Positions 23-18,632 of a stretch of DNA of 22,280 nucleotides are shown piece by piece. The first letter of the stretch is position 1. Each line of letters starts with the position of its first letter. The DNA lies in IMG/VR virus record IMGVR_UViG_3300020400_000049, positions 1 through 22,280 of that record. One strand, written 5' to 3'. Below the pieces are notes generated by a model, which was not told the origin of the DNA, did not search any database, and worked only from the letters and a program-made list of their open reading frames with translations. This stretch comes from a virus. The position numbers and the translations under genes were made by a program.

Positions 23-1486
23 ATGTCGGATAAAATATTTGTAAAACATAACTTAGGTCCTTTTCAACAACCTTATTTACGCCAAGTTGCAACTGATAAT
101 CAGCAACTTGAAACAGGGAATACTCGAGGTATCACACAGGGTATTACTCAACAACCTTCAATTTACCAAAACCAAGGGGCAACAGTAGTACAGCAACCTT
201 TTAATATACGGACTACAACGCAAGGTGATACTCAGTTACCTAGTACATACATATATCAATCGCCTTCAAGAGGTAATACGCAAATAGCAGTTAGATATCC
301 ATTCAGATATCCGTTTATACAATCATATCCATTTACTTACCCGTTTATTGCTAGATACAATTATCAATCCCCTCAAACGTATGAATTTCAAGGACAGACA
401 CAGGTAAATGTAAATAATCCGGCAATTGGGCAATCTATTGGAGATACAACTGTTCAATCACCATCAAGAAGTCCTGCAAGATATGCCTTTCAAGTTCAGA
501 CTTCAACTCCTCAAAGAAATAATGTTAACGTACAAACAGCAGTAGATAATCAAACGGCAGTCAATGTACGAACTGCGACACAAGGAAATACACAATATAC
601 TTACCAAAGTCCTAGTATTGGTCAAGCAAGTGCACAAGGTACCACTCTAGGTAATACAGATAATCCAGTAACTATTGAAGAAAATCATTTCTTAAATACA
701 GGGGCATCGATTGCCAACATAACATCTACTGATACTTTTAATACTACTTCTACTTCTGCTCAAACAAGACAAGATAATTTTCATATTAAACATGAGATTG
801 ATACAACTAATTTTTCTGGCAAAACAGTTTTTAGAATATACATTCGTGGTGCTACGACAACTAATCCAGATCAACAACAAGGATCTCAAGCAGGAACTAA
901 GGTAGCAATCTACGAAACACCATCACAAAATACAGGTATACCCGCTGGTCAGACTGCATTCTCAATAACTTTTATTGAAGTTGCTAGATATGAAATACCA
1001 AGTTCATATACTGGTTTAACTGGGTATCAAACAGTGCTTTCAGATATAACACACGTGGCAGTTGGACCTCCAGGGGCATCATCGGCATTTTTAGATTATA
1101 CAGATACTCAAACATCAGGAAATCCAACAACAAAAGCATTTCCTACGAATAATCTTGTTTCTGTCTATAATAATTGTCTAAGTTTTAAAACATTTGAAAC
1201 CGCTTATAGTCCTGCAGGATTTCAGTTAAGATGTAATTCTCTAGGTAATTTTGGAAGCACATCTTGGAGGCAGATAAGTCAAATTAGAATTACTCTTAAA
1301 TTAAGATCGACATCTCCTGCACCTAGTAGAACATTGACTGGAACTCATTTTATAAGAATAAAAATAGATCATCAAGTTAACTTCCAGAGTGGATTCCCAC
1401 CACCATCTGGAGGACCACAATTCCCGAATTCGCCACCATCTGGTAATGCACCAGTTAATCAACCAGCACCGGGGGACGGAGAATAA
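23..1486 (+). CDS. Dipeptide-register fibre-like protein with C-terminal globular domain
   Basis: 487 aa; no family recognised. Residues about 12-222 can be cut into consecutive dipeptides (QP SI, YQ, GN TR, SP SR, YP FR, FI, AR YN, VN, GQ) without loss of phase, and proline falls on odd residue numbers throughout. This pattern is shared with the proteins at 1490, 9239 and 11507. Residues about 223-445 are a different, beta-rich and more globular region with two cysteines. The last 40 residues are Pro/Gly/Ser rich (PPPSGG, PPSGN). A long fibrous shaft with a terminal head or receptor-binding domain is inferred from this architecture. The ATG at 23 is near the window edge and no clear ribosome site precedes it, so an upstream start outside the window cannot be excluded. 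The next gene begins 3 bases after the stop, so the two are probably co-transcribed. Confidence 0.8.
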   Translation: MSDKIFVKHNLGPFQQPYLRQVATDNQQLETGNTRGITQGITQQPSIYQNQGATVVQQPFNIRTTTQGDTQLPSTYIYQSPSRGNTQIAVRYPFRYPFIQSYPFTYPFIARYNYQSPQTYEFQGQTQVNVNNPAIGQSIGDTTVQSPSRSPARYAFQVQTSTPQRNNVNVQTAVDNQTAVNVRTATQGNTQYTYQSPSIGQASAQGTTLGNTDNPVTIEENHFLNTGASIANITSTDTFNTTSTSAQTRQDNFHIKHEIDTTNFSGKTVFRIYIRGATTTNPDQQQGSQAGTKVAIYETPSQNTGIPAGQTAFSITFIEVARYEIPSSYTGLTGYQTVLSDITHVAVGPPGASSAFLDYTDTQTSGNPTTKAFPTNNLVSVYNNCLSFKTFETAYSPAGFQLRCNSLGNFGSTSWRQISQIRITLKLRSTSPAPSRTLTGTHFIRIKIDHQVNFQSGFPPPSGGPQFPNSPPSGNAPVNQPAPGDGE

Positions 1487-1489
1487 GAT

Positions 1490-2266
1490 ATGCCACAGGT
1501 ACAGCATCAATTTTCAAATCCTTCAACGTATACATTTAGATATCCGTTTAGGACACCTATAAATGTGCAGAATTCAGTACAGGGAAGAACACAATATACT
1601 TTTCAACAACCTAGCATTGGTAGATCACCATCAATAGTACAGCAACCAAGTATAGGTCAGCAACCAAGTATAGTGCAACAACCTTCTATAGGACGAGGTA
1701 ACACCAGAGTAAGTGTTCAGAATCCTACTCCTGCAACGTATAGATTTCCATACGAATATCAATCACCGTCTACTTCCCCTGCTAGATATTCAGCACAGGG
1801 AAATACAAGAATTACAGTTCAAGGTCAAACAGATGCTACAGGTCAAAGTCAAGGAAATACTGTAGCACAGGGAAATACTAGAGGTATAACTCAGAGTCCT
1901 GCTAGATATAATGTACAAAATACAGCAACTGGTCAAACAAGAACACCACAAAATTACATATATCAATCTCCATCTATTGGAGTTAATCAAAATATAACAG
2001 TGCCTTATCCGTACGAAGCAAATTCTCAAACACCAGTTAGATATTCATTCAGGTCTCCGTTTACATACGAATATAGATCACCTTTCATTACACAGGTAAC
2101 TACAAATGGTAATCGACCAATAGGACAAGTTGCTGAAGTCAAGGGAGTATTCTTCAAAGATTCAGATGGTGTAGTCAAGAAAACGCAAGAAGTATATGTC
2201 AAAAAAGATTCATCTACAGTAGAGAAGATACATCAAACAATACCACTCTCTCAGATGAACAGATAA
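1490..2266 (+). CDS. Dipeptide-register fibre-like protein
   Basis: 258 aa; not a recognised family. Residues about 8-212 follow the same two-residue pattern as the gene before it (NP ST YT FR YP FR TP), with one one-residue phase slip near residue 168 (around NITVP). Residues about 39-68 contain five copies of a six-residue unit of type QQPSI[GV]. The last 45 residues are charged and lack the pattern (VKGVFFKDSDG, VYVKKDSS), so they may form an attachment or capping end. The start ATGCCACAG matches the start of the similar gene at 11507, which supports the start choice; GGAG at 1478-1481 is a suitable ribosome site. Structural role is inferred from sequence style and neighbourhood only. Confidence 0.78.
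   Translation: MPQVQHQFSNPSTYTFRYPFRTPINVQNSVQGRTQYTFQQPSIGRSPSIVQQPSIGQQPSIVQQPSIGRGNTRVSVQNPTPATYRFPYEYQSPSTSPARYSAQGNTRITVQGQTDATGQSQGNTVAQGNTRGITQSPARYNVQNTATGQTRTPQNYIYQSPSIGVNQNITVPYPYEANSQTPVRYSFRSPFTYEYRSPFITQVTTNGNRPIGQVAEVKGVFFKDSDGVVKKTQEVYVKKDSSTVEKIHQTIPLSQMNR
1604..1693 (+). repeat. Five tandem 18-bp units (hexapeptide QQPSI[GV])
   Basis: Five in-frame 18-base units at 1604, 1622, 1640, 1658 and 1676 encode QQPSIG, RSPSIV, QQPSIG, QQPSIV, QQPSIG. Copies differ at synonymous positions (cct/cca, agc/agt/tct, att/ata), so the amino-acid pattern is better conserved than the DNA. Confidence 0.85.
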
Positions 2267-2271
2267 AGTTG

Positions 2272-2279
2272 TATAAATA
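2272..2279 (+). promoter_or_regulatory. T4-like late promoter box TATAAATA
   Basis: An exact TATAAATA lies in the short gap after the stop at 2266. Only five bases separate it from the ATG at 2285, and no Shine-Dalgarno sequence is present. In T4, transcription starts about 6 bases past this box, so the mRNA would start at or within a base or two of the ATG. Confidence 0.7.
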
Positions 2280-2284
2280 GTTAT

Positions 2285-2614
2285 ATGGCCAATATATCAA
2301 ACTTATTCATAGATCAAGGAACAGACTTCGAAATAACAGTCGATGTAACTCAAGCAGATGGTACTGCTTTAGATTTGACTGGTTATTCTGCCGCGGCACA
2401 AATTAGAAAAACCTATGGGTCTTCACAAAGAACAGCATTTACTACAGGTATTTCAGCGGCCTCTGGTCAAGTAACAATGTCTTTAACAGATACACAGACA
2501 AGTGCTCTTACTTCTGGACGTTATGTTTATGATCTTAATATTACTAGTGGTGCAGGTATCACTACTAGAGTTGTTGAAGGTCAAGTAATTATAACACCAG
2601 GGGTAACGAGATAA
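2285..2614 (+). CDS. BppU-N-like beta-sandwich baseplate/fibre protein
   Basis: 109 aa. The pattern of an N-terminal 'LFIDQGTDFEITVDV', a central 'DLTGYSAAAQIRK', 'GQVTMSLTDTQTSAL', and 'GRYVYDLNITSGAG' followed by 'VVEGQVIITPGVTR' is that of the small Ig-like/BppU N-terminal domains found in phage baseplate and fibre-associated proteins. The whole protein is one such domain, so it is probably an adaptor or capping structural protein. The start at 2285 is supported by the family-like N-terminus; the next in-frame Met is about 60 residues later. Its stop overlaps the next start by one base. The exact virion position is unknown. Confidence 0.65.
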   Translation: MANISNLFIDQGTDFEITVDVTQADGTALDLTGYSAAAQIRKTYGSSQRTAFTTGISAASGQVTMSLTDTQTSALTSGRYVYDLNITSGAGITTRVVEGQVIITPGVTR

Positions 2615-2856
2615 TGGCAATCAAGGGTGTAGTAGGAAGAGTTGCGGGTATATCTGCAAAAGTACAAGGACAAGGTAATGTTCGTGTAAAGCAAGTTGCA
2701 GTTGGTAACTCATCTACAAGTGTAAATCTATCAGCAAAATCTATCAACGAACTTCAAGACGTAAACGCCGCGGAGAGTGATGATGGATTTCTTCAATACA
2801 ACGCATCAAATGATAAGTGGGAAACTACTACAACAATTGATGGCGGAACATTCTAG
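2614..2856 (+). CDS. Small fibre-type structural protein ending in DGGTF
   Basis: 80 aa. The segment 'SINELQDVNAAESDDGFLQ' followed by 'YNASNDKWETT' is a module recurrent in fibre proteins of marine T4-like phages, where it precedes a beta-structured shaft. The protein ends in TIDGGTF, a C-terminus also seen here on the 492-aa protein and, as VDGGTI, on the 86-aa protein at 6628. The start overlaps the preceding stop by one base (TAATG), implying translational coupling. Whether it is an independent fibre segment or a remnant of a longer protein cannot be told. Confidence 0.65.
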   Translation: MAIKGVVGRVAGISAKVQGQGNVRVKQVAVGNSSTSVNLSAKSINELQDVNAAESDDGFLQYNASNDKWETTTTIDGGTF

Positions 2857-2859
2857 TCG

Positions 2860-2867
2860 CATAAATA
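2860..2867 (+). promoter_or_regulatory. Late promoter-like box CATAAATA
   Basis: Seven of eight bases match TATAAATA. It lies four bases after the stop at 2856 and 129 bases upstream of the ATG at 2997, so it would create an unusually long leader for that gene. Confidence 0.5.
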
Positions 2868-2996
2868 ATTATATCAATCAAGGTGTCATTCAGTGAGACA
2901 CGACCCACATTGTGAGTGGACTGGTACATCATGATCTTTCTCGAATAGTGCAGAGAAAAATAATTAATTAATTAAATTTTTTCGTAGGAGAAAAAA
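2868..2996 (+). promoter_or_regulatory. 129-base leader with possible stem-loops
   Basis: This is the longest non-coding stretch in the window. By eye it can form GTGTC/GACAC (2883-2887 with 2897-2901), a weak CCAC/GTGG (2905-2908 with 2916-2919) and TTTCTC/GAGAAA (2937-2942 with 2953-2958). An AT-rich run and a clear AGGAG ribosome site (2986-2990) follow. None of the hairpins carries a terminator-type U run. A structured 5' leader for the 492-aa protein is inferred; no known riboswitch class was recognised. Confidence 0.35.
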
Positions 2997-4475
2997 ATGG
3001 CAACAGTAATTCAGATTAAAAGAAGTACAGGAGCAAGTGCGCCAGGTGTTAGTGATCTAGCAGAAGGCGAATTGGCGTATGTACAAGATAGATCGAATGA
3101 TGGTGCTTCTGCTAAATTATTCATAGAGTCAGTCGACTCTGGATCATCAGCAGTTATCCATGAAGTTGGTGGTAAATTCTTTACAGATATATTATCAGGA
3201 AGTAAACCAACACCAGCAAACTTTAAAGTTGGTAATGGATCAACAGCAGGTGCATCTATAATACTTAACGAAGATTCAGATAATGGATCAAATTTCGTAG
3301 CACTTAAGGCGCCAGATTCAGTAGCAAGTAATGTTACATTTACATTACCAGGTGCTGATGGTTCTGCTAACCAAGTATTAGGAACTAATGGATCAGGTAC
3401 ACTTTCATTCCTATCAACAACTTCAACTCTTGCTGGAGCAACAGACTCAGATATTTCTTCACCAAATTCAGGACATATACTTGTTCATGACGGTTCAGAT
3501 TCATTTGATAACGTAGCAATATCAGGAGACATTTCATTAGCATCTAACGGTGCAGTAACAATCGCCAACGATGCGGTTGAACAAGCAATGATTGCCGATG
3601 ATGCAGTTGGTGCCGATCAGTTGGCGGCAAGTTCAGTAGTTATTGGTTCTTTATCAGCAGGTATGCTAGTAATCGAATCAGAAGGTATTGGATCAAACGA
3701 CAACGATACAACGATTCCAACTTCAGCGGCAGTAAAAGATTATGTTGATACAAACATAACTGCTCAAGACTTAGACTTTCAAGCAGATTCAGGTGGTGCA
3801 TTATCTATTGATTTAGATTCAGAAACACTTTCTGTAGTTGGTACAGCAAACGAAATCGAAACAACTGGTTCTGGTAATCAGATTCAAATCGGACTCCCAG
3901 ATAACGTAACAGTTGGTGGGAACTTTGCAGTAACAGGAAACTTAACAGTTAATGGTACAACTACAACTGTTAATTCTACTACTACAACAGTAGACGATCC
4001 TGTATTTACTTTGGGTGGTGATTCTGCCCCAGGTTCTGACGATAACAAAGACAGAGGTATTGAATTTAGGTATCACACAGGTTCAGCGGCAAAAGTCGGT
4101 TTCTTTGGATTCGATGATTCAACAAGTAAGTTTACTTTCATAGCAGATGCTACTAACAGTTCTGAAGTATTCTCAGGAAGTGCAGGTAATGTTTCATTTG
4201 GCAGTTTAGATTTAGCAGGATCAATTACTTCTGTAGACGGAAGTGCACCAACAAATGGTCAGATTCTAATGGGTCACACTGGAAATGGAGACATGCAATT
4301 AGGAACTATAACTGCAGGAGAAGGTGTAGATGTTTCTAATGGAGCAGGAAGTATTACTATATCAGGAGAAGATGCAACTACAACCAATAAAGGTATCGCA
4401 AGTTTTGCCTCAGCAAACTTTACAGTATCTAGTGGTGCAGTTACTATCACTGCTATTGACGGCGGAACATTCTAA
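2997..4475 (+). CDS. Modular tail-fibre/appendage protein (Mtd_N-like N-terminus)
   Basis: 492 aa. The N-terminus MATVIQIKRSTG with 'LAEGELAYVQD' and 'KLFIES' matches the Mtd_N-like domain common at the base of marine phage fibres. Residues about 186-215 are an 'ANDAVEQAMIADDAVGADQL' type repeat segment. Residues about 314-340 hold the 'NLTVNGTTTTVNSTTTTVDD' module shared with the proteins at 5805 and 6888, followed by a beta-rich domain (KVGFFGFDDSTSKFTFIADA). The C-terminus is AIDGGTF. The start is fixed by AGGAG at 2986-2990 and by the near-identical start of the next gene. It is very likely a virion fibre or whisker-like structural protein; exact placement is unknown. Confidence 0.75.
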   Translation: MATVIQIKRSTGASAPGVSDLAEGELAYVQDRSNDGASAKLFIESVDSGSSAVIHEVGGKFFTDILSGSKPTPANFKVGNGSTAGASIILNEDSDNGSNFVALKAPDSVASNVTFTLPGADGSANQVLGTNGSGTLSFLSTTSTLAGATDSDISSPNSGHILVHDGSDSFDNVAISGDISLASNGAVTIANDAVEQAMIADDAVGADQLAASSVVIGSLSAGMLVIESEGIGSNDNDTTIPTSAAVKDYVDTNITAQDLDFQADSGGALSIDLDSETLSVVGTANEIETTGSGNQIQIGLPDNVTVGGNFAVTGNLTVNGTTTTVNSTTTTVDDPVFTLGGDSAPGSDDNKDRGIEFRYHTGSAAKVGFFGFDDSTSKFTFIADATNSSEVFSGSAGNVSFGSLDLAGSITSVDGSAPTNGQILMGHTGNGDMQLGTITAGEGVDVSNGAGSITISGEDATTTNKGIASFASANFTVSSGAVTITAIDGGTF

Positions 4476-4497
4476 TAATCGTTAATAGGAGGAAAAG

Positions 4498-5325
4498 ATG
4501 GCAACAGTAATTCAGTTTAAGAGAAGTTCTACACAGAATGATGTGCCTGCTACATCTGACCTAGTTTTAGGTGAGTTAGCAGTTAACACTTATCATGGAC
4601 GTTTCTACACTGAGAAGAATGATGGTTCAGCGGCAATCGTTGAAGTGGGATCAAACCCTGCCACATTTCAGATCAATGATGCATATTCTTTTCCGACAAG
4701 TGATGGTACCAACGGGCAAGTATTAAAAACAAATGGTTCTGGAACATTAAGTTTCGGAAGTGCTACATCAGGTGGTGCAATATCAGTTTTTAAATTCACT
4801 GTTACATCAAATACAACAGTATTTACAGGTAATGACGATGATAGTAATTCATTGCTTTACGTAGTAGGTAACGAACAAGTATTTTTAAATGGTGTAAAAC
4901 TTGTAGACGGTGGTGCAGATTATACTGCAACGAACAGTAATACTATCACTTTAGAGGAAAACGCAATCAATGGTGATGTATTAGAAGTAGTAGCAATAAC
5001 GGCAACTGATCTAGTAGATGGTTTCTTTACTGCTAGTACATTTTCAGCAACTACGGCCAATCAGGTTTTATCACAAAACGCAGTTTCTAACAAAGCAATT
5101 AAGTACGTGATAAATGCCACCCATGCATCTGCAGGGACACATGCGGCCGAAGTATTGTTGATCAACGATGGTTCAAACGCATTTTTTGTTCAGTATGGTG
5201 ATGTATTTTCAAATGCATCATTATTTACATTAAGTGCTGATGTCAATAGTGGGAATATGAGATTACTCGTAACTCCAGCAAACACTAATACGACTATCGA
5301 TACATTTCAGATTAGACATAGTTAA
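4498..5325 (+). CDS. Modular fibre protein, Mtd_N-like N-terminus with shared C-terminal domain
   Basis: 275 aa. It starts MATVIQFKRSS, almost the same as the preceding gene (the first 18 coding bases are identical), with 'DLVLGELAVNTYHGRFYTE' completing the Mtd_N-like domain at about residues 1-55. A middle segment at about 95-170 ('NEQVFLNGVKLVDGGADYTA') resembles the beta-rich fibre segments of T4-like cyanophages. Residues about 190-275 (YVINATHASAGTHAAEVLLI, VQYGDVFSNASLF, LLVTPANT) form a domain repeated at the ends of the next two proteins. AGGAGG at 4487-4492 is an excellent ribosome site. Confidence 0.72.
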   Translation: MATVIQFKRSSTQNDVPATSDLVLGELAVNTYHGRFYTEKNDGSAAIVEVGSNPATFQINDAYSFPTSDGTNGQVLKTNGSGTLSFGSATSGGAISVFKFTVTSNTTVFTGNDDDSNSLLYVVGNEQVFLNGVKLVDGGADYTATNSNTITLEENAINGDVLEVVAITATDLVDGFFTASTFSATTANQVLSQNAVSNKAIKYVINATHASAGTHAAEVLLINDGSNAFFVQYGDVFSNASLFTLSADVNSGNMRLLVTPANTNTTIDTFQIRHS

Positions 5326-5336
5326 AGGAGGATAAT

Positions 5337-5747
5337 ATGGCAATATCAAGAGCATTCGAAATCGCAGAACTTATCCGTCATTTTAAGTATGATTCAACTA
5401 ACGATGTTATTGTAACTTCAAAAGCAACTCAAGACAAACATAAGAAGAGAGGTGCAGAAACTAAAACTTCTACTTCTCAGTTTGCTTTAGATACTTTTGC
5501 AAAAGCAGACTTCAGAGCGGCCAGATATATTATAGCAATGTCGAGAGGAACAGATTTTCATTCGACAGAAATAATGTTAGTCCATGACGGTTCAACAGTA
5601 ACGTTGACTCAGTATGGTACATTAAAAGATGCTAATTTGGCAACTATTGATGCGGATATAAGCAGTGCAAATGTCAGACTTTTAGTAACACCTGCTAGTG
5701 CAACTAGTACAGTTATTAAGTTTGATCGCACATTAGTAGAGGCGTAA
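5337..5747 (+). CDS. Small structural protein with shared C-terminal beta domain
   Basis: 136 aa. Residues about 53-136 (ARYIIAMSRGTDFHSTEIML, VHDGS, LTQYGTL, VRLLVTPASA, IKFDRTLVEA) align by eye with the C-terminal domains of the proteins at 4498 and 5805. The first 50 residues are charged and have no partner elsewhere in the window (FEIAELIRHFKYDS). AAAGGAGG at 5324-5331 gives a strong ribosome site. The gene is followed directly by a factor-independent terminator, so it ends a transcription unit. Likely a fibre-tip or appendage component, by inference from the shared domain. Confidence 0.68.
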   Translation: MAISRAFEIAELIRHFKYDSTNDVIVTSKATQDKHKKRGAETKTSTSQFALDTFAKADFRAARYIIAMSRGTDFHSTEIMLVHDGSTVTLTQYGTLKDANLATIDADISSANVRLLVTPASATSTVIKFDRTLVEA

Positions 5748-5761
5748 ATCAAAAAACGATC

Positions 5762-5789
5762 AAGGCGGGCGTAAGTCCGCCTTTTTTTT
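5762..5789 (+). terminator. Strong intrinsic terminator with GNRA-type loop
   Basis: AAGGCGG (5762-5768) pairs with CCGCCTT (5777-5783). The stem can be extended by a G-U and a C-G pair to close a GTAA tetraloop. A run of eight T (5782-5789) follows. It stands just before the late promoter at 5792 and separates two structural transcription units. Confidence 0.9.
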
Positions 5790-5791
5790 AT

Positions 5792-5799
5792 TATAAATA
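5792..5799 (+). promoter_or_regulatory. T4-like late promoter box TATAAATA
   Basis: An exact octamer two bases after the terminator T run and five bases before the ATG at 5805, with no ribosome site between. As the terminator blocks most upstream transcription, this box should drive the next gene, whose message would be nearly leaderless. Confidence 0.75.
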
Positions 5800-5804
5800 G
5801 TATT

Positions 5805-6548
5805 ATGGCAACAACAAAAAAATTTATAGCAGATATAGGTCTTGAAACTGCAAATGATTTAAGTGTAGACGGTAACGCAACAATTACTGGTAATCTAACA
5901 GTCAATGGTACAACTACAACTGTTAATTCAACAACTACTAGTATTACCGATTCTATGTTCGAACTTGCTAATCAAAATACATCAGCAGATACACTTGATC
6001 TAGGAATATACGGAAACTATAACGATGGTTTATCAGATGGTGGTGCAAGTGAATATACGGGTTTATTCAGAGACGCCTCCGACTCTACATGGAAGTTATT
6101 TGATGGTCTTGAAGAAGAACCAACGACAACAGTAAATTTGTCTGGTACGGGATATGCTAAAGCATCATTAGAAGTAGGTGATCTATCATGCACTACGATT
6201 ACAGCAACAGATAATCTAACGATAGATAGTTTAGTTGTAGATAGTAACACAGGTACAACTCTAACCACTACATCAGAAACAGAATTAGATAGTTTTACAG
6301 CATCATCTTTTAGAAGTGCAAAATATCTTTTACAAGCAACTCAAGGAAGTAATCATCATACATCAGAGATATTAATAATACATGATGGTACAAATGCATT
6401 CTTCTCACAATATGGTATAATAATTACAAACTCATCACTATACGATGTATCAGTATCATTAGCAAGTGGTCAAGTTAAATTAAATGTAACACCTGCATCA
6501 AATAGTTCGACTGTATTTAAGTTCTCTAGAACTTTAATTAAAGCATAA
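5805..6548 (+). CDS. Modular fibre protein with LTVNGTTTT module
   Basis: 247 aa. The N-terminus (KFIADIGLETANDLSVDG) resembles those of the proteins at 6628 and 6888 (F/L-I/V-x-x-x-G-L), which supports the ATG at 5805 even though no Shine-Dalgarno is visible. Residues about 30-57 carry the 'NLTVNGTTTTVNSTTTSITD' module. A domain at about 58-120 (LGIYGNYNDG, TGLFRDASDSTWKLFDGLEE) follows and is typical of these fibres. Residues about 160-247 are the C-terminal domain also found in the two preceding proteins. It opens a transcription unit behind a terminator. Virion fibre component, exact role unknown. Confidence 0.73.
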   Translation: MATTKKFIADIGLETANDLSVDGNATITGNLTVNGTTTTVNSTTTSITDSMFELANQNTSADTLDLGIYGNYNDGLSDGGASEYTGLFRDASDSTWKLFDGLEEEPTTTVNLSGTGYAKASLEVGDLSCTTITATDNLTIDSLVVDSNTGTTLTTTSETELDSFTASSFRSAKYLLQATQGSNHHTSEILIIHDGTNAFFSQYGIIITNSSLYDVSVSLASGQVKLNVTPASNSSTVFKFSRTLIKA

Positions 6549-6585
6549 AAATTCTTTTGTATCTCTTTTAGGAGATAGTGTCAAT

Positions 6586-6593
6586 TATAAATA
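6586..6593 (+). promoter_or_regulatory. T4-like late promoter box TATAAATA
   Basis: An exact octamer 38 bases after the stop at 6548 and 34 bases before the ATG at 6628. It leaves room for a normal leader containing a purine-rich AGGGAAAA ribosome site. Confidence 0.75.
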
Positions 6594-6627
6594 ATAGAGT
6601 TAACAGTTTATAAACTAGGGAAAAATT

Positions 6628-6888
6628 ATGGCAACTCAGAGTAACCTCGTAGTTGAATATGGATTAACAGTCGGAACGACTGAAGTGATAAACTCTTCAG
6701 GTAAATTACAAGCAAGTGCAATCAGTACATTAGATACAGACAATTTATCAGAAGGTTCTACAAACTTATATTTCACAAACGCCAGGGCACGTGGCGCAAT
6801 CAGTCTTGCATCGGGTGAGACTAGTCTAGCATATAATTCAACATCAGGAGAACTCTCATTGTCGTCAGTTGATGGAGGAACAATTTAA
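6628..6888 (+). CDS. Short fibre-type protein resembling the N-terminus of the following fibre
   Basis: 86 aa. 'LTVGTTEVINSSGKLQASAI' at about residues 13-32 matches 'LTIGSTEVINSSGIIQGSAV' of the next protein. 'LDTDNLSEGSTNLYFTNARA' matches the internal repeat of that protein. It ends in SSVDGGTI. It looks like a compact version of the 773-aa fibre: same N-terminal module, one copy of the repeat, then a stop. The two genes overlap by one base (TAATG), so they are translationally coupled. It could be a base or adaptor subunit, or the product of a partial duplication. Confidence 0.65.
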   Translation: MATQSNLVVEYGLTVGTTEVINSSGKLQASAISTLDTDNLSEGSTNLYFTNARARGAISLASGETSLAYNSTSGELSLSSVDGGTI

Positions 6889-9209
6889 TGTCAAGTAAAA
6901 ACTTCATAATTAAAAATGGTCTGACGATTGGTTCTACAGAGGTTATCAATAGTTCAGGTATCATACAAGGTTCAGCAGTAAATGAAGCAATTGATGATAG
7001 ATTAAATTCTACACTAACTGCAGGATCAGGTATCGGTTTATCATACGATGATGCCGCTAACACACTTACAATCACAGGTAATGTTGGAGATATTACAGGA
7101 GTAAATGCTGGTGCTGGTCTGACAGGTACAGCAACTTCTGGTGATGCAACATTAAACGTTGGTGCTGGTACAGGTATGACTGTAAATGCAGATGACATTG
7201 CTATCGACTTCAAAGACGAAGATAACATGGCATCAAATAGTGCTACCCATGCCGCTACTCAACAAAGTATTAAAGCATACGTAGATTCGCAAGTCGCATC
7301 TAAAGATGCATTATCAGAACTTTCTGGAGACTCAGATGACATAACAGAAGGTTCAACAAACTTATTCTTCACAAATGCTAGAGCAGATGCCAGAATTGCA
7401 AACGCAATCAAAGACGAAGATAACATGGCATCAGATAGTGCAACTCATGTTCCTTCACAACAATCAGTAAAAGCATTTGTTGCCGCCCAAATCGCAACTA
7501 AAGATAATACAGACGAGATCACAGAGGGTTCATCTAATCTTTATTTTACAGATGAAAGAGTCGATGACAGAGTAAACGCATTACTATCTGCTGGTGTTAA
7601 CGTAGCAATGTCTTATGACGATGCAAATAACAATTTAGAAATTAGAGTACCATTTGAAAATATACAAGACACAGTTGGTACTCAGATCGCAACAAATGGT
7701 ACACATACTGGTCTTACTGCAACTTACGATGACTCAAACGATGGTGCTATTGATCTAGCAGTATCTACATCACATATCAGAGGTTTGATATCTGCAGGTG
7801 GTGATTTATCATACGATAGTTCTACTGGTGTAATATCATTTACAAACGATGCAGGTGATATAGAGTCTGTAACAGCAGGTGCTGGTTTAACAGGTGGTGG
7901 AACTTCAGGTGCACTTACACTTAACGTTGTAGGTGGAGATGGTATAACTGCGAATGCAAATGACATCGCATTATCATCAACAGTTGCTGGTAATGGTTTA
8001 TCATTCTCATCAGGTGTTCTTGCAGTTGGCGTAGATGATAGTTCAATTGAATTAAACTCAGATGCACTTCGAGTAAAAGACGGCGGTATCGATAATGATA
8101 TGTTAGCAGGTTCAATAGCAAATGCTAAGTTGGCCAATAGTGCGATTACTATTGATGGTCAATCAGTATCACTTGGTGGATCAGTAACTACAACAAATAC
8201 ACAATTAACAACAGAACAAGTACAAGATATTACAGGTGCTCAGATTGTATCTAACGGATCACATACTGGTATATCGTTTGCATACGATGATGCAAATGAT
8301 GGCGCCATAGATGCTACAGTATCATTATCACCTTTTGATACTGATAACTTATCAGAAGGTTCAAGTAATCTATACTATACAAATGCTAGAGCAGATGCAA
8401 GAGTAAACTTGCAAACAGGGTCAAATCTAAATTTATCATCTAAAGATACTGATGATCTAAGTGAAGGTTCATCTAACCTATACTTCACTAACGAGAGAGT
8501 AGATGATAGAGTAAACGCATTGATACAAGAAGGAACAGGTATCACTGCAACTTATAATGATAGTTCAAATACGTTAACACTTGCAACTACAATAACACAA
8601 TATGCAGATTCAGATGCCAGAGGTGCTATATCAGTAACAGATTCTGGTGGTGATGGATCATTAGCATACGATAATAGTTCTGGTGTTATCACATATACAG
8701 GACCAAGTGCATCAGAAACAAGAGCACATTTCTCTGCAGGTACTGGTGTTGCTATCAGTTCAGGTCAAGTTAGTATCGGTCAGGCAGTTTCAACATCTAG
8801 TAATGTAACATTTAACGACCTTGTTGTATCAGGAGATTTAACAGTCAATGGTTCAACAACAACAGTTTCATCAACAAATACAACAGTCGAAGATTCACTT
8901 TTAGAACTTGGTAATGGTACAACAGGCACACCTTCAAATGATGCTGGTATTGTTATAGAGAGAGGTGATGAAGATAACGTATTCATGGGGTGGGACGACA
9001 GTGCAAGTAGATTTATAGTTGCAACAACAAATGCAACTGGTGCCTCTACTGGAGCATTAACACTATCAGAAGCAAACTTTAGAGCAGGACAAATATCTAC
9101 AAGTTACGCAAACAATAGTGGTGGTGTTGCAAGAAATATATATCAATCAACTTCTGCTCCGACTGGATCAGACGGACAAGTTGGTGATTTATGGATTCTA
9201 TTTTCATAA
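6888..9209 (+). CDS. Long modular tail-fibre protein
   Basis: 773 aa. After an N-terminal 'NFIIKNGLTIGSTEVINSSG' module, the shaft consists of repeated segments of two kinds: 'LSEGSSNLYYTNARADARV' with its variants (ITEGSTNLFFTNARADARI, LSEGSSNLYFTNERVDDRV), and 'AGAGLTGGGTSGALTLNV' with its variants. Residues about 645-680 hold 'DLTVNGSTTTVSSTNTTVED'. The C-terminal region has 'IVIERGDEDNVFMGWDDSA' and ends 'STSAPTGSDGQVGDLWILFS', a common terminal motif of marine phage fibres. It is the largest conventional fibre here and a good candidate for the host-contacting fibre shaft. The start overlaps the upstream stop. Confidence 0.8.
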   Translation: MSSKNFIIKNGLTIGSTEVINSSGIIQGSAVNEAIDDRLNSTLTAGSGIGLSYDDAANTLTITGNVGDITGVNAGAGLTGTATSGDATLNVGAGTGMTVNADDIAIDFKDEDNMASNSATHAATQQSIKAYVDSQVASKDALSELSGDSDDITEGSTNLFFTNARADARIANAIKDEDNMASDSATHVPSQQSVKAFVAAQIATKDNTDEITEGSSNLYFTDERVDDRVNALLSAGVNVAMSYDDANNNLEIRVPFENIQDTVGTQIATNGTHTGLTATYDDSNDGAIDLAVSTSHIRGLISAGGDLSYDSSTGVISFTNDAGDIESVTAGAGLTGGGTSGALTLNVVGGDGITANANDIALSSTVAGNGLSFSSGVLAVGVDDSSIELNSDALRVKDGGIDNDMLAGSIANAKLANSAITIDGQSVSLGGSVTTTNTQLTTEQVQDITGAQIVSNGSHTGISFAYDDANDGAIDATVSLSPFDTDNLSEGSSNLYYTNARADARVNLQTGSNLNLSSKDTDDLSEGSSNLYFTNERVDDRVNALIQEGTGITATYNDSSNTLTLATTITQYADSDARGAISVTDSGGDGSLAYDNSSGVITYTGPSASETRAHFSAGTGVAISSGQVSIGQAVSTSSNVTFNDLVVSGDLTVNGSTTTVSSTNTTVEDSLLELGNGTTGTPSNDAGIVIERGDEDNVFMGWDDSASRFIVATTNATGASTGALTLSEANFRAGQISTSYANNSGGVARNIYQSTSAPTGSDGQVGDLWILFS

Positions 9210-9215
9210 TAAATA
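9208..9215 (+). promoter_or_regulatory. Late promoter-like box AATAAATA
   Basis: Seven of eight bases match the T4 late box. It overlaps the stop codon of the preceding gene and lies 23 bases before the ATG at 9239; a weak purine-rich TTGGAAAA lies between. Confidence 0.5.
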
Positions 9216-9238
9216 GAATATATTTGGAAAATTAATAA

Positions 9239-11500
9239 ATGGCGACAGGTTCACAAAAAGTAAAAACCCCTACAGGTTGGAATAGTACAAGAGGAGCATG
9301 GGTAAAAACTGCTTCTGGTACTTGGAAAGATGTAGATCAAATTTATGTGAAAACACCTACAGGGTGGAACAATGCGTCTGGTCAAGAAGCAACTCAGCAA
9401 CCGTATCCCTATATTGCAAACGCACAGAATCCATTTATTAGAAGAACACCTCAACCATATCCGTATATAGCAAATGCTCAAAATCCTTTTATAAGAGATC
9501 AGCAGATACCATTTACGTATCAATATCAATCCCCGAGTACTTATGCGACTCAAGGTAATACTCAGGTACCTTACAGTCATAGATCACCAGATCAATATAG
9601 TGCTCAAGGGGCCACTAGAGGAAGTACGCAGAATCCATTTACGTACCCATTTATACAACCAGTGATTGGGCAAACTAGATCACCGTTTACGTATGATATA
9701 CAAACAACTACTCAAGGAAATACTAGACAACCGAATACATATCCTTTTAGATATCCATTCACTTACATATTTCAAGCACCAACTATTGGTACAACTGATG
9801 CAACTGGTAGTACTCAGCAACCTAATATAGGACAGACAAGATCACCATTTACATATATCTATCAGTCACCTAATATAGGTACAACTGAAGTACAAGGTAA
9901 TACTAGACAACCAAATACTTATATTTTTAGATATCCATTTACTTACATCTATCAATCACCTGCGATTGGTACTACAGATGCAACAGGAAGTACGCAAGAA
10001 CCAAACGAATATAATTTCAGAACACCAAGCAGATATCCATTTATTACTAGATATCCTTTCACTTATATCTATCAATCACCAGCAATAGGGACAACTGATG
10101 CACAGGGAAGTACACAAGAACCAAACGAATATAGTTTCCAAACACCGTTTAGATATCCGTTTATCGCAAGATATCCATTCACATACATTTATCAGTCACC
10201 TGCTATAGGAACAACTGATGCAACTGGTAGTACTCAAGAACCAAATGAATATAGTTTTCAAACACCATTTAGATATCCATTCATAGCAAGATATCCATTT
10301 ACTTATATCTACCAGTCACCTGCTATCGGAACGACTGATGCTACAGGAAACACACGGGAACCTAACGAATATAGTTTCCAAACAATTTTTAGATATCCGT
10401 TTATTGCGAGATACCCATTTACTTACGAATATCAATCACCTGCAATTGGTACTACTGATGCAACTGGTAATTCTAGAGGAACTACAAACGCAACTGGTAA
10501 TACTAGACAACCTAATATAGGACAGACAAGATCACCATTTACATACCCATTCATTCAACCTGCAACAGGGAATACGAGAGTAAATGCTCAAGAATCAAAT
10601 AGTAATCAAGGATCAACACAGAGTCCATTCACATACCCATATATTGCAAACGCAGTAGGGAATACGAGAGTAAATGCTCAAGAATCAAATGATAATCGTG
10701 GATCAACACAAAATCCATTTACTTATCCGTTTATCGCAAGATATCCATTTATTGCGAGATATCCATTCATTGCTAGATACCCATTCATTGCTAACGCAAC
10801 AGGGAATACAAACGCAAGAGGAAATACTAACGCAACTGGTAATTCAAATGGTAACACACAAGGTTCAACAAGATCACCATTCAGACAACCATTTAGAACA
10901 CCAACACGTGTACCATTTAGACTCCCATTCAGACAACCTGTGTTAGGGCAAACTCCTGTATTCTCGCCATTTGGAGGGTGTTTTGTAGCAGGTCAAAAAG
11001 TATTGATGGGTGATGATACATGGAAAGAAATAGAAAATGTAAATGTCGGTGATGAAGTGATGTCTATGAATATGGAAACAAAAGAGTTGAGAAAGAATGT
11101 TGTTGGTGGTCTGTTACCAGAAACCCACTGTAATATTTGGTGGATAACTTTAAGTAATGGTAAAGTTTTAAAAACAACAGAAGATCACCCAATACTATTG
11201 AAGTCTCATGAATGGGCATGTATTGACCCAGAAGTAGAAAACGAAAGACATGGCCAAGAAGAGTGGCATGATTTCGAATGTAAAAAACTAGAAGTCGATG
11301 ATGAAGTATATTATCATGGCGGAGAGAAAGTAAAAGTATTAGAGATATTTAACACGAATAAAACAGAGAGAGTTTATAACTTATTAGACGTAGGTTTATC
11401 TTCTTCCGAGAAAGCATACGCCGATCATAACTTTATTCTTGAGAAATTTTGTGCTCATAATAAACAGAGATTCGGTCCAGGAGGAGGTATACCACCTTAA
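9239..11500 (+). CDS. Dipeptide-register fibre protein fused to a C-terminal Hint (intein-like) domain
   Basis: 753 aa. Residues 1-50 contain two copies of VKTPTGWN. Residues about 52-580 follow an unbroken two-residue pattern (YP, FI, AR, SP, QP, GN, TR, GT). About sixty prolines all fall on odd residue numbers, and nearly all glycines fall on the other parity. Residues 581-741 are a Hedgehog/intein domain. Block A begins at C581 (CFVAGQKVLMGDDTWKEIEN, then VNVGDEV), block B has T647-x-x-H650 (TEDHPIL), and the end is YADHNFIL - C738 A H740 N741. The domain is 161 residues, the size of an intein without homing endonuclease. Only 12 residues (KQRFGPGGGIPP) follow N741, and the +1 residue is lysine. 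Self-cleavage or conjugation of the fibre at C581 and/or N741 is inferred; classical splicing looks unlikely without a Cys/Ser/Thr at +1. Confidence 0.85.
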   Translation: MATGSQKVKTPTGWNSTRGAWVKTASGTWKDVDQIYVKTPTGWNNASGQEATQQPYPYIANAQNPFIRRTPQPYPYIANAQNPFIRDQQIPFTYQYQSPSTYATQGNTQVPYSHRSPDQYSAQGATRGSTQNPFTYPFIQPVIGQTRSPFTYDIQTTTQGNTRQPNTYPFRYPFTYIFQAPTIGTTDATGSTQQPNIGQTRSPFTYIYQSPNIGTTEVQGNTRQPNTYIFRYPFTYIYQSPAIGTTDATGSTQEPNEYNFRTPSRYPFITRYPFTYIYQSPAIGTTDAQGSTQEPNEYSFQTPFRYPFIARYPFTYIYQSPAIGTTDATGSTQEPNEYSFQTPFRYPFIARYPFTYIYQSPAIGTTDATGNTREPNEYSFQTIFRYPFIARYPFTYEYQSPAIGTTDATGNSRGTTNATGNTRQPNIGQTRSPFTYPFIQPATGNTRVNAQESNSNQGSTQSPFTYPYIANAVGNTRVNAQESNDNRGSTQNPFTYPFIARYPFIARYPFIARYPFIANATGNTNARGNTNATGNSNGNTQGSTRSPFRQPFRTPTRVPFRLPFRQPVLGQTPVFSPFGGCFVAGQKVLMGDDTWKEIENVNVGDEVMSMNMETKELRKNVVGGLLPETHCNIWWITLSNGKVLKTTEDHPILLKSHEWACIDPEVENERHGQEEWHDFECKKLEVDDEVYYHGGEKVKVLEIFNTNKTERVYNLLDVGLSSSEKAYADHNFILEKFCAHNKQRFGPGGGIPP
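10022..10501 (+). repeat. Four tandem 120-bp units (40 aa = 20 dipeptides)
   Basis: Copies begin at 10022, 10142, 10262 and 10382. Each encodes TP FR YP FI AR YP FT, then YI YQ SP AI GT TD, then AT GS TQ EP NE YS FQ with small changes. The fourth copy has TI for TP and diverges after GN. Most differences between copies are synonymous third-base changes. Confidence 0.88.
10724..10792 (+). repeat. 18-bp tandem units encoding RYPFIA
   Basis: Units starting at 10724, 10742, 10760 and 10778 (the last incomplete) encode successive YPFIAR hexapeptides just upstream of the Hint domain. Codons for the same residues alternate (tat/tac, ccg/cca, ttt/ttc, atc/att). Confidence 0.85.
10979..11461 (+). other. 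Hint domain coding segment (C581-N741)
   Basis: This segment encodes the intein-like domain of the 753-aa protein from the block A cysteine to the terminal His-Asn. Its composition differs sharply from the flanking repeat: charged, normal-complexity sequence (EEWHDFECKKLEVDDEVYYH) against the Tyr/Pro/Thr/Gln fibre. No LAGLIDADG or HNH endonuclease motif is present. Confidence 0.82.
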
Positions 11501-11506
11501 ACAACT

Positions 11507-13135
11507 ATGCCACAGCAAACTTATTCATATAGAGTTAACGCACAGAACCCTGTTCATTTCCCTGTGTTTATTAACGCACGTGCGAATGCTCAACAACCAG
11601 TTCGATATCCGTTCACGTACCCCTTTACCTATCCGTTTATTACGAGATATCCATTTATTACAACATACCCATTTACAGTCAATGCAAGAGGGACCACAAA
11701 TGCAAGAGGGACCACAAATGCTAGAGGAACTACTAACGCAACTGGAAACTCTAGACAACCTGCAAGATATCCGTTTATTACTAGATCGCCGTTTAGACAA
11801 CCTACAACTTACCCATTTACATACGATGCAACAGGGAATACTAGACAACCAGTTAGATATCCATTTATTACTAGATCACCATTTAGACAACCTACAACTT
11901 ACCCGTTTACAGTAAATGCGACTGGGAGTACACAGGAACCTAACGAATATAGTTTTCAAACACCATTTACTTATCCGTTTATTGCAAGATATCCATTTAC
12001 ATATCCGTTTATACAACCATATAGTTTCCAAGTTACAACTCAAGGTTCTACACAGGGAACTACAATTGCACAGGGTGTTACTAGACAACCAAACATTGGT
12101 CAAACAAGATCACCATTTACTTATCCATTTATACAACCGTATGCTTTCCAAGTTTCAACAACAGGAAACACTAGAGGTAACACAAATGCTCAAGGTAATA
12201 CTAGACAACCGAATATAGGACAAACTAGGTCACCATTTACTTACCCATTCATACAACCTTATGCTTTTCAAGTTTCAACAACAGGAAATACTAGGGGTAA
12301 TACGAATGCTCAAGGTAATACTAGACAACCAAATATTGGTCAAACAAGATCACCGTTTACTTATCCATTTATACAACCATATAGTTTTCAAGTAACAACG
12401 ACTGGTAATACTAGAGGTAATACAAACGCACAGGGTAATACACAAACACCGAACATAGGACAGACAAGATCGCCGTTTACTTATCCGTTTATTCAACCAT
12501 ACAGTTTTCAAGTTACTTCTACAGGAGGAACTCAAGGTACAACTACAGGTAATACTCAGACACCGTTTACTTATCCGTTCATTCAACCTTATAGTTTCCA
12601 AGTTACATCTACTGGTACTACTCAAGAACCAAATGAATATAATTTTAGAACACCATTTACTTACCCATTCATACAACCTTATGCTTTCCAAGTAACTACG
12701 ACTGGTAGTACACAGGGTAATACAACTGGTAACACACGAACACCATTTACTTACGAATATCAATCACCATCGATTGGTAATACTCAAGAACCAAATACAT
12801 ACATATTTACTGTAGAAGCACAGGGTAATACTAGACAACCTGTAAGATATCCATTTACATATCCTTACATAGCAAATAGACAGAACCCATTTATAAGACA
12901 GCAAACACAACCATATCCATACATTGCAAACGCAGTCAATCCGTTTATTAGAAACGCAAGACAACCAACTACTTACAGTCATAGATCACCTAGTACGTAT
13001 GCAACTCAAGGGGTAACTCAAGTAACATATAGTCATAGATCCCCGAGTACATACGCAACTCAAGGTAGAACACCTGTAAATAGATGGGACGGAGTCTTGA
13101 GTCAACAGTGGCCAGCATCTCCAATATCGTCATAA
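11507..13135 (+). CDS. Large dipeptide-register fibre-like protein
   Basis: 542 aa, almost entirely low-complexity repeat; not a recognised family. From about residue 4 to 530 the sequence stays in one two-residue phase (QP NI GQ TR SP FT YP, then FI QP YA FQ). About sixty prolines sit on odd residue numbers and glycines on even ones; the only exceptions noticed are P2, one GG and the end (QWPASPISS). The C-terminal 15 residues (VNRWDGVLSQQWPAS) are the only non-repetitive part and hold its two Trp. The start MPQ matches the protein at 1490. No good ribosome site lies at the usual spacing; AGGAGGAGG at 11479-11487 is about 19 bases upstream inside the previous gene, so coupling to that gene is likely. 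It is probably a partner fibre of the Hint-bearing protein. Confidence 0.8.
   Translation: MPQQTYSYRVNAQNPVHFPVFINARANAQQPVRYPFTYPFTYPFITRYPFITTYPFTVNARGTTNARGTTNARGTTNATGNSRQPARYPFITRSPFRQPTTYPFTYDATGNTRQPVRYPFITRSPFRQPTTYPFTVNATGSTQEPNEYSFQTPFTYPFIARYPFTYPFIQPYSFQVTTQGSTQGTTIAQGVTRQPNIGQTRSPFTYPFIQPYAFQVSTTGNTRGNTNAQGNTRQPNIGQTRSPFTYPFIQPYAFQVSTTGNTRGNTNAQGNTRQPNIGQTRSPFTYPFIQPYSFQVTTTGNTRGNTNAQGNTQTPNIGQTRSPFTYPFIQPYSFQVTSTGGTQGTTTGNTQTPFTYPFIQPYSFQVTSTGTTQEPNEYNFRTPFTYPFIQPYAFQVTTTGSTQGNTTGNTRTPFTYEYQSPSIGNTQEPNTYIFTVEAQGNTRQPVRYPFTYPYIANRQNPFIRQQTQPYPYIANAVNPFIRNARQPTTYSHRSPSTYATQGVTQVTYSHRSPSTYATQGRTPVNRWDGVLSQQWPASPISS
11683..11718 (+). repeat. Perfect 18-bp direct repeat (AR GT TN)
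   Basis: Two identical 18-base copies (11683-11700 and 11701-11718) are followed by a third copy with synonymous changes. They encode NARGTT units. These are among the few copies in the region that are still identical at DNA level, suggesting a recent duplication. Confidence 0.85.
12086..12565 (+). repeat. Four tandem 120-bp units (40 aa = 20 dipeptides)
   Basis: Units start at 12086, 12206, 12326 and 12446 and encode QP NI GQ TR SP FT YP, then FI QP YA FQ VS TT, then GN TR GN TN AQ GN TR. Copies 1-3 are nearly identical in protein but scattered with synonymous changes; the fourth starts TP and diverges in its last third. The unit length equals that of the repeat in the 753-aa protein although the amino-acid content differs. 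Confidence 0.9.
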
Positions 13136-14757: not shown

Positions 14758-15309
14758 ATGAACATGTTAGTATATGATGAAAATGGCAATCTAATTATTC
14801 GTAAGCAAAATGGTTTAGAATATAGGTTTGATAATACCGATAAACCAGAATTTGGTTTCGAATATGATGTATTAGTCTACGATGATATCGAAGTCAAAAT
14901 TGTAAAGTGGCAAGATGGAATAGATTTCAGTGAGCAAGAGCAAGTCAAATTAAATGCTGATGAATGTGATGCAATTGAAATGTATATCGCAAACTCAGAA
15001 CCACCTTCAGATGTAAGTCTTAATTCACAATATCTAAACAATCTAAATCACATGTGTAAAGATTTTATCAACTCTCAAACAAATGATACAGGATTCAATG
15101 ATTTCCATGAAGTCATATATGCTGGACGAGAAGGATCAAATCACCCATACAGAAGTGATGCTAGAGATGTTATGGAATATGCAGATGTTGTATGGCAAAC
15201 ATACGTACAAGTTGCAGATGAAATTAAAATGACTAGAGAAGATACACTCAAACCATTTGAAGATTACTCAAATGCTATACCAGGACCAATGAGACAACTT
15301 CTAAAGTAA
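14758..15309 (+). CDS. Hypothetical protein
   Basis: 183 aa, no family recognised. The N-terminal half is acidic and beta-like (MLVYDENGNLIIRKQNGLEY, FEYDVLVYDDIEVKIVKW). The C-terminal half is helical and contains 'SDARDVMEYADVVWQTYVQ' at about residues 133-151, a pattern like the helical domains found in some phage tail-fibre assembly or DUF4376-type proteins, but the resemblance is weak. No signal peptide or membrane segment is visible. CAGGAG at 14745-14750 gives a clear ribosome site at correct spacing. It sits between the glycosyltransferase and the first oxygenase, three bases before the latter. Confidence 0.7.
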   Translation: MNMLVYDENGNLIIRKQNGLEYRFDNTDKPEFGFEYDVLVYDDIEVKIVKWQDGIDFSEQEQVKLNADECDAIEMYIANSEPPSDVSLNSQYLNNLNHMCKDFINSQTNDTGFNDFHEVIYAGREGSNHPYRSDARDVMEYADVVWQTYVQVADEIKMTREDTLKPFEDYSNAIPGPMRQLLK

Positions 15310-15312
15310 TGT

Positions 15313-15987
15313 ATGTCTTTAACAATAGAACATATTGATAGACCTATAAAGGTATCTGAATTACCATTAGACAGAGTATATGTAATAGATAATTACTTAC
15401 CTACTGTTCTTTGGCATAGAGTAGATGATGTATTATCTACTGCTATGATATGGGCAAAAACAAATTCAGTTCATGGTCAAAGTCGAACAGGATTACCACA
15501 TCATAGTTTTTGGGGTACATCTTTTTTTCGTGGACCAGATAAAGTCACAGAACACGATGATCTAAAATCTATAACTCTTATGAAAGCAATAGACGAAAAA
15601 ATACAAACTGATTTTGGGTTTAGATGGATTAGATTTCAATATATGGGTTGTAACAGTCAGACACAGGGATTACATGGCACAACTCATTCAGATTGTGCTG
15701 AAGATGATGATTATAATCTCTCATTTCTATATTACTACAATAAGTTTTGGAATCCACATTGGGGCGGTGATTTAAGATTTTATGATGAACCACAACAAGG
15801 ATTAGATGGTAGAGATGAACATATAAAAAATCATCAGATCGGAAGTGTTGAGTTTGTACCAAATCGATTGCTGATGTTTGACGGAAGAATACCACATGGT
15901 GCAGATGCACCAAACGAAAGGGCAAGATATGCCGATAGAAGATCGATAGTATTAAGAGGCGATGAAGTAGAAATATGCCAACGATAA
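15313..15987 (+). CDS. 2OG-Fe(II) dioxygenase
   Basis: 224 aa. It shows the double-stranded beta-helix iron-binding pattern of 2-oxoglutarate-dependent oxygenases: H125-x-D127 (GTTHSDC), then 'NLSFLYYYNKFWNPHWGGDL' with 'RFYDEP', and distal H195 (GRIPHGADAP). R209/R210 (ADRRSIVLRG) lies 14-15 residues later as the likely 2-oxoglutarate contact. All three iron ligands are present, so an active hydroxylase is expected. The substrate is not known; such enzymes are frequent in T4-like marine phages. It begins three bases after the upstream stop and overlaps the next gene by 13 bases, so it belongs to one operon with its neighbours. Confidence 0.85.
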   Translation: MSLTIEHIDRPIKVSELPLDRVYVIDNYLPTVLWHRVDDVLSTAMIWAKTNSVHGQSRTGLPHHSFWGTSFFRGPDKVTEHDDLKSITLMKAIDEKIQTDFGFRWIRFQYMGCNSQTQGLHGTTHSDCAEDDDYNLSFLYYYNKFWNPHWGGDLRFYDEPQQGLDGRDEHIKNHQIGSVEFVPNRLLMFDGRIPHGADAPNERARYADRRSIVLRGDEVEICQR

Positions 15988-18630: not shown

Positions 18631-18632
18631 TT

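Follow-up and report, generated by a model that had tools for sequence, protein, structure and literature searches.

A two-residue parity rule in repetitive proteins of marine phages, and its proposed reading as tail-fibre shafts

The 22,280-nt stretch considered here (the window) is the entire IMG/VR fragment record IMGVR_UViG_3300020400_000049, and carries four open reading frames (ORFs) whose proteins, according to an earlier sequence-only reading, are built from a limited vocabulary of dipeptides locked to a two-residue phase over hundreds of residues. The four ORFs were verified at positions 23, 1490, 9239 and 11507, and are referred to by letters (D for the 487-aa protein, A for the 258-aa, B for the 753-aa and C for the 542-aa). 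They belong to a locus of the order vrlC–D–A–tail genes–B–C–GT–p183–2OG–p281–2OG–gp13 (GT, glycosyltransferase; 2OG, 2-oxoglutarate/Fe(II) oxygenase), in which the gene order of the intervening structural block is also kept in relatives (Table 1). Long open alternative frames occur within the phased genes (10338-10520, 10674-10946 and 11916-12218 on the + strand, and several on the - strand), owing to the low-complexity codon make-up of these genes.

Table 1. Coordinates of the features in the window
Feature	Position	Strand	Remarks
Phased protein D, 487 aa	23..1486	+	N-terminal MSDKIFVKHN..FQQPY motif, shaft, unphased C-terminal domain
D shaft, residues 13-216	59-670	+	parity core
D unphased C-terminal domain	671-1483	+	beyond the phased core
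Phased protein A, 258 aa	1490..2266	+	shaft, slip, conserved C-terminal anchor
A shaft, residues 3-164	1496-1981	+	one-residue slip near 168, then opposite phase to about 206
A conserved C-terminal VYVKKDSSTVEKIHQ anchor	about 2108-2263	+	
Tail/baseplate-type structural genes (109, 80, 492, 275, 136, 247, 86, 773 aa)	2285..9209	+	unphased; PHROGs tail fibre/structural matches
Phased protein B, 753 aa	9239..11500	+	N-terminal domain, shaft, Hint domain, short tail
B conserved N-terminal domain, residues 1-49	9239-9385	+	
B phased shaft, residues 50-578	9386-10972	+	
Hint/bacterial-intein-like domain in B	10979..11461	+	C581...T-E-D-H-P...H740-N741, then Lys and a 12-residue tail
Phased protein C, 542 aa	11507..13135	+	shaft and C-terminal motif
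C shaft, residues 3-524	11513-13078	+	
C conserved C-terminal motif RWDGxLxQxWPxSPI	13082-13132	+	
GT8-like glycosyltransferase GT517, 517 aa	13160..14713	+	DxD at D376/D378; extra N-terminal region of ~280 aa
p183, 183-aa protein	14758..15309	+	present at 74/74 C loci
2OG-Fe(II) oxygenase, prolyl-4-hydroxylase-like (2OG-224)	15313..15987	+	H125-x-D127...H195
p281, 281-aa protein, phrog_7084	15975..16820	+	
Second 2OG-Fe(II) oxygenase (2OG-FeII_Oxy_5)	16817..17503	+	
gp13, gp14, gp15 orthologues (neck, head closure, tail sheath stabiliser)	17815..20539	+	mark the end of the host-recognition cluster

The two-residue phase is real, and far stronger than composition alone would give. Counted by odd and even residue number, C has 62:2 prolines, 0:42 tyrosines, 1:42 phenylalanines, 2:33 glycines and 34:4 arginines, and B has 68:3 prolines, 3:49 tyrosines, 4:43 phenylalanines and 11:44 glycines, much as first noticed (about sixty prolines on one parity in each protein, and glycines on the other). 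The corresponding chi-square values (247 for C and 260 for B) stand against maxima of 37 and 53 among 2000 composition-matched shuffles, and parity counts revealed no bias in three other structural proteins of the window. Sequences simulated from a first-order Markov model, which keeps the dipeptide statistics, never attained the observed value, and second-order ones did so only for the short core of A (10 of 400). Within the four phased cores, all 157 prolines lie on a single parity (63 in B, 61 in C, 16 in A and 17 in D), and only 4 of the 308 Y/F/G/H residues break the rule. A phase running for more than 500 residues was correctly described for B and C, whose cores contain no proline violator. 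The claim that all four proteins are phased holds for their cores, as D departs from the phase beyond residue 216, where another domain begins, and the C-terminus of B is an unphased Hint domain (residues 581-741). The slip noticed near residue 168 of A was located between residues 164 and 172; the extra residue is absent from aligned relatives, and looks like a 1-aa insertion.

The same rule extends to a large family. In scans of IMG/VR, 191 stretches proved to be related to B and 332 to C, and 194 distinct related marine phage proteins, with 63,104 phased residues pooled, obey it. Denoting by x the parity that carries proline and by y the other, the pooled x:y counts are 8360:87 for P, 77:6103 for Y, 77:2861 for F, 3035:200 for I, 24:1072 for H, 618:100 for D, 114:883 for E and 119:1471 for V, values slightly biased by a segment finder that itself scores parity, with which the unselected per-protein counts nevertheless agree. 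The vocabulary is indeed limited, 20 dipeptides accounting for 71% of in-phase pairs across the family. Spacings between successive prolines in these 194 proteins are even in 8164 cases and odd in 89, with modes at 8 (48%) and 6 (28%), and the underlying grammar is simple: a proline usually opens a P-[FYN]-[TI]-[YAR] tetrad, after which come 2, 4 or 6 polar residues. The long, uninterrupted and one-sided beta ribbons proposed from the sequence of the window are not supported as stated: prolines recur every 8 or 6 residues, which is more suggestive of short strands connected through turns of even length than of a single long strand.

Does the phase reflect a constraint on the protein, or is it a by-product of how the genes were built? 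Tandem duplication of DNA units of 6n bp could in principle generate a phase by descent, without structural meaning: the window genes do contain tandem arrays of 18, 90 and 120 bp, a small vocabulary of words is reused, and third-order Markov sequences reproduce the phase. Several observations on relatives argue otherwise. Among 69 non-overlapping orthologue pairs, 210 indels in the phased region are even in length and 9 odd, and small indels of 2 and 4 aa outnumber those of 1 and 3 aa by 68 to 6. The C-terminal RWDG falls on an even residue number in 63 of 64 complete distinct C proteins, despite lengths of 222-584 aa. Isolated single-nucleotide substitutions from residues occurring on both parities (N/Q/R/S/T/K/L) lead to P/I/D/W versus A/G/Y/F/H/E/V in a ratio of 34:8 on parity x and 0:47 on parity y, while synonymous differences are equally frequent on both (970 versus 942). 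Words of 6, 8 and 10 residues all stay in phase, and their codons are synonymously diverse. A hexamer rule acting on the DNA itself was also rejected, as parity tracks the amino acid and not the base: the TCN and AGY codon families of serine have equal parity fractions (0.33 and 0.34), whereas Asp and Glu (0.86 versus 0.11), or Gln and His (0.69 versus 0.02), differ widely even though only the third base distinguishes the members of each pair. Together, the indel, RWDG, substitution and codon tests indicate that the rule is a protein-level constraint maintained by purifying selection, and not the drift of a repeat; phase by descent is largely refuted by the substitution spectrum, and we regard it as very unlikely.

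The shafts lie outside the described families of the libraries searched, as had been suspected. No relative of C, nor of the N-terminus of B, was found by tblastn among GenBank phages, no relative of C in a scan of one genome per bacterial or archaeal species, no sequence match for the shaft in the PDB, no family covering the shafts in Pfam or PHROGs, and no description of such proteins in the literature that was searched. Matches to Pseudomonas phage YA3 were rejected as compositional; they point to an unrelated hypothetical protein (L179:2080-3429) made of near-perfect SNTGNRSA octapeptide repeats, which is also even-phased because its period is 8. Pfam matches to Cementoin, Rhodopsin_N, AXH and DUF1388 were likewise judged compositional or Hint-related.

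The four phased types recur in the order D, A, B, C, and each combines a shaft with its own terminal parts. D-type proteins have an MS[DE].. N-terminus, a phased shaft and an unphased C-terminal part, and in three long contigs their gene is the one directly after vrlC. The C-terminal domain of the window's D has no relative in the collected loci, the PDB, Pfam or PHROGs, and D-type relatives in other contigs carry different C-terminal parts, which suggests that this domain may be an exchangeable tip. A-type proteins share a conserved C-terminus (VYVK..VEKIH). At two loci (L085:696-2162 and L094:323-2155), a D-type N-terminus and an A-type VEKIH-like C-terminus are found in one protein, and the window, with its separate 487-aa and 258-aa genes, may carry a split form of such a fused D-A protein. 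B-type proteins have an invariant 49-residue N-terminus, a shaft and a variable C-terminus; a weak VKxxxGxxK..VYVK motif is common to their N-terminus and to the C-terminus of A (hhalign E 4e-5, 24 columns). C-type proteins end in the RWDG motif of Table 1.

The C-termini of B-like proteins are the most diverse: an automatic sort of 72 distinct sequences gave 17 Hint domains, 40 short tails, 8 others and small domains, 5 copies of one further domain and 2 truncated ends, and several members of the "other" class resemble divergent Hint domains. In the window, the Pfam Hint match (3e-6) is below the curated cut-off and the closest structure is the bacterial-intein-like (BIL) domain of PDB 2lwy (8e-6), with a clearer signal in relatives (for example L012, Intein_splicing at 1e-9, above cut-off). 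The Hint/intein-like domain is an optional tip of B (10979-11461 in the window; also in L012, L014, L015, L016, L017, L018 and others), preceded by a Gly-rich stretch and followed, after the terminal HN, by a short tail whose first residue is usually not Cys, Ser or Thr; it is predicted to autocleave. B shows the layout of a conserved anchor (its N-terminus) with an exchangeable C-terminal module (Hint, short or other).

The phased genes lie among tail-fibre genes between vrlC and gp13/gp14, a region described as the host recognition cluster of pelagimyophages (PMC7029224). This slot, the anchor–shaft–variable-tip layout and the adjoining tail-fibre genes fit the fibre role proposed from the window alone. 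At all 74 distinct C loci that have sufficient flanking sequence, the genes after C are GT517, p183, 2OG, p281, a second 2OG and gp13, and a phased gene stands immediately upstream of each of the 53 distinct GT genes whose upstream sequence is long enough, in two GT-locus scans that cover the 80 closest matches. GT517 matches Pfam Glyco_transf_8 above cut-off (7e-6), and its DxD residues show at least 97% conservation across 110 distinct sequences of a family diverging to ~40% identity. 2OG-224 belongs to the 2OG-Fe(II) fold family (Pfam 2OG-FeII_Oxy_3, 1e-8), and its nearest isolate gene is annotated prolyl 4-hydroxylase; the HxD...H triad of its iron site is at least 97% conserved among 96 distinct sequences, over a similar divergence (to ~40% identity). 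From synteny, 2OG-224 may hydroxylate the shaft proline. The p183 protein has no match among GenBank phages, was seen here only beside phased genes, and is a possible fibre chaperone. Homologues of p281 (phrog_7084) occur in the haloarchaeal tailed viruses HF2, HJTV-1 and HCTV, at 25-30% identity, an unexpected link between bacterial and archaeal viruses.

Nine of 13 long contigs carrying phased fibre genes also encode CsgG (PF03783, E about 1e-49 to 1e-56; the contigs behind L032, L061, L088, L080, L138, L025, L063, L072 and L002), and none of the 13 has a Photo_RC gene (psbA/psbD family). A cyanophage origin was rejected, and these two features fit genomes of pelagimyophage type. Could the phased proteins be amyloid substrates, of the curli kind, for the CsgG pore that such phages encode? 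Phages of this kind have been reported to carry CsgG without CsgA/B, a point in favour, but sister phages have CsgG and no phased proteins (both in PMC7029224 and PMC9004378). By inspection, the N-termini show no obvious signal peptide, the genes are placed with structural ones inside the tail-fibre cluster, and library scans of the phased proteins gave no Pfam curlin match. With no evident signal peptide and the wrong gene neighbourhood, this idea is judged extremely unlikely.

Taken together, A to D are best read, with moderate confidence, as fibre proteins that marine phages of a pelagimyophage-like type (T4-like, Kyanoviridae-related) encode in their host-recognition cluster, and the phased fibre as an undescribed kind of shaft within a known kind of structure, the phage fibre. 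The shafts would be chains of 6-, 8- or 10-residue units of the above grammar, forming an extended, beta-rich and probably oligomeric rod of short strands and even turns. Its x face, carrying Pro, Thr, Ile, Gln, Arg, Asn and Asp, would be exposed, and its y face, carrying Tyr, Phe, Ala, Gly and Val as well as His and Glu, would pack. As unit length is even, the shaft could vary in length while residue parity is kept, without the faces being flipped, and odd indels would be purged because a one-residue slip turns the faces inside out. B and D would be tip-bearing fibres whose C-terminal modules can be exchanged (Hint domains, small beta domains or Gly-rich tails), and A and C their partners with conserved C-terminal anchors. 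The GT8 glycosyltransferase, the prolyl-hydroxylase-like oxygenase and p183 would probably mature the shaft, by hydroxylating and/or glycosylating its exposed face and by chaperoning it.

Several results weigh against this account. AlphaFold2 monomer prediction of C gave a mean confidence (pLDDT, predicted local distance difference test) of 49.5, with only local hairpins in its 40-residue repeats, and a canonical member of the family gave no confident fold (pLDDT 41.0; predicted template-modelling score, pTM, 0.12). Foldseek returned nothing at E<=0.001 against the PDB and BFVD; some weak BFVD rows were labelled "Curlin associated". Kyte-Doolittle hydropathy has almost no autocorrelation at lag 2 (-0.02 and 0.04), since Ile, Thr and Pro occupy one parity and Tyr, Phe, Ala, Gly and Val the other; it is the residue class YFVAGL that alternates instead, at about -0.4/+0.4 as far as lag 10. 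A natural slip persists in A, the coupling with GT may partly reflect shared ancestry rather than function (given the 80 closest matches), and related phages without phased proteins commonly have 2OG oxygenases next to gp13.

Obligate oligomers often fail in monomer structure prediction. Low AlphaFold2 confidence, low-complexity composition and weak compositional matches to Cementoin and Extensin would equally suit intrinsically disordered P/Q/N/T-rich linkers, in which the phase serves sequence reading or nothing at all; such linkers leave unexplained the purging of odd indels and the parity-specific substitutions over 500 residues, and their plentiful aromatics confined to one parity, so that disorder appears unlikely. 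A single-chain beta-solenoid with intramolecular coils would account for the AlphaFold2 hairpins that stack in register on the 40-aa repeats of C (block pLDDT up to 88). The number of residues per coil is not constant (mixed 6/8/10 units, repeats of 30 and 40 aa), the canonical member yielded no model and Foldseek no match at E<=0.001, and a solenoid is likewise judged unlikely.

A more specific version of the fibre-shaft account, rather than its opposite, is an intertwined trimeric beta-helix like the T4 gp5 needle (octapeptide VxGxxxxx), each 6-10-residue unit forming one face of a triangular prism. The dominant 8-residue unit, the even periods, the baseplate-region location and weak Gp5_trimer_C matches (best 4e-4, in 2 of 9 A and 4 of 40 C members) are compatible with it. 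These matches are all below the curated cut-off and may be due to composition, a V-x-G frame is not conserved, and 6- and 8-residue units are irregularly mixed, unlike in gp5; we hold this version to be rather unlikely. A bolder proposal, less likely than not, is that the shafts form a new class of fibrous protein, written in a two-residue code, whose proline face would be hydroxylated and glycosylated by a dedicated and always-linked phage cassette.

Parity provides a strict and testable sequence rule for a structural family present in hundreds of marine-phage IMG/VR stretches. If the phased proteins are indeed a new fibre shaft, they would offer simple rules for designing a protein fibre that is modular and adjustable in length, and would account for a portion of the host-recognition region in abundant ocean phages that remain uncultured. 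The shafts are also a candidate substrate for many unexplained phage 2OG oxygenases and GT8 enzymes.

Among the closest known systems are the tail-fibre genes in the host recognition cluster of pelagimyophages and cyanomyophages, represented by the isolates Mosig (EXVC030M), Melnitz and HTVC008M, which have the same vrlC–neck slot and similar adjoining structural genes (PMC7029224), but lack phased proteins, and GT517, p183, 2OG-224 and p281 in that slot. The C-terminal trimerisation domain of T4 gp5 (PF22178) shares an even, 8-residue repeat and a baseplate/fibre context; the phased shafts differ in having no VxGxxxxx, in their mixed 6/8/10 units, their proline richness and their far greater length. 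With sub-threshold matches in few members only (best 21.0 bits, for a curated cut-off of 30.9), membership of the gp5 family is not claimed, and a similar construction is plausible. The needle of the T4 long tail fibre protein gp37, like other trimeric fibres, combines a long shaft, an exchangeable tip and an alternation of inward and outward residues; gp37 has no sequence similarity to the phased shafts, and we know of no parity lock across hundreds of residues in such fibres. BIL/Hint domains resemble the C-terminus of B in their Cys start, TxxHP block and terminal HN, and differ in that the domain of B is a swappable tip on a phased shaft, with a +1 residue that is mostly no splicing nucleophile. 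Finally, collagen- and extensin-like fibres are likewise repetitive and proline-rich, and the shaft genes stand beside a prolyl-hydroxylase-like enzyme and a glycosyltransferase; the shaft period is two residues, and not that of Gly-X-Y triplets (period three) or Ser-Pro4. Should the putative modification of the shaft prove true, these proteins would represent a prokaryotic-virus counterpart of collagen and extensin, with a period of two instead of three.

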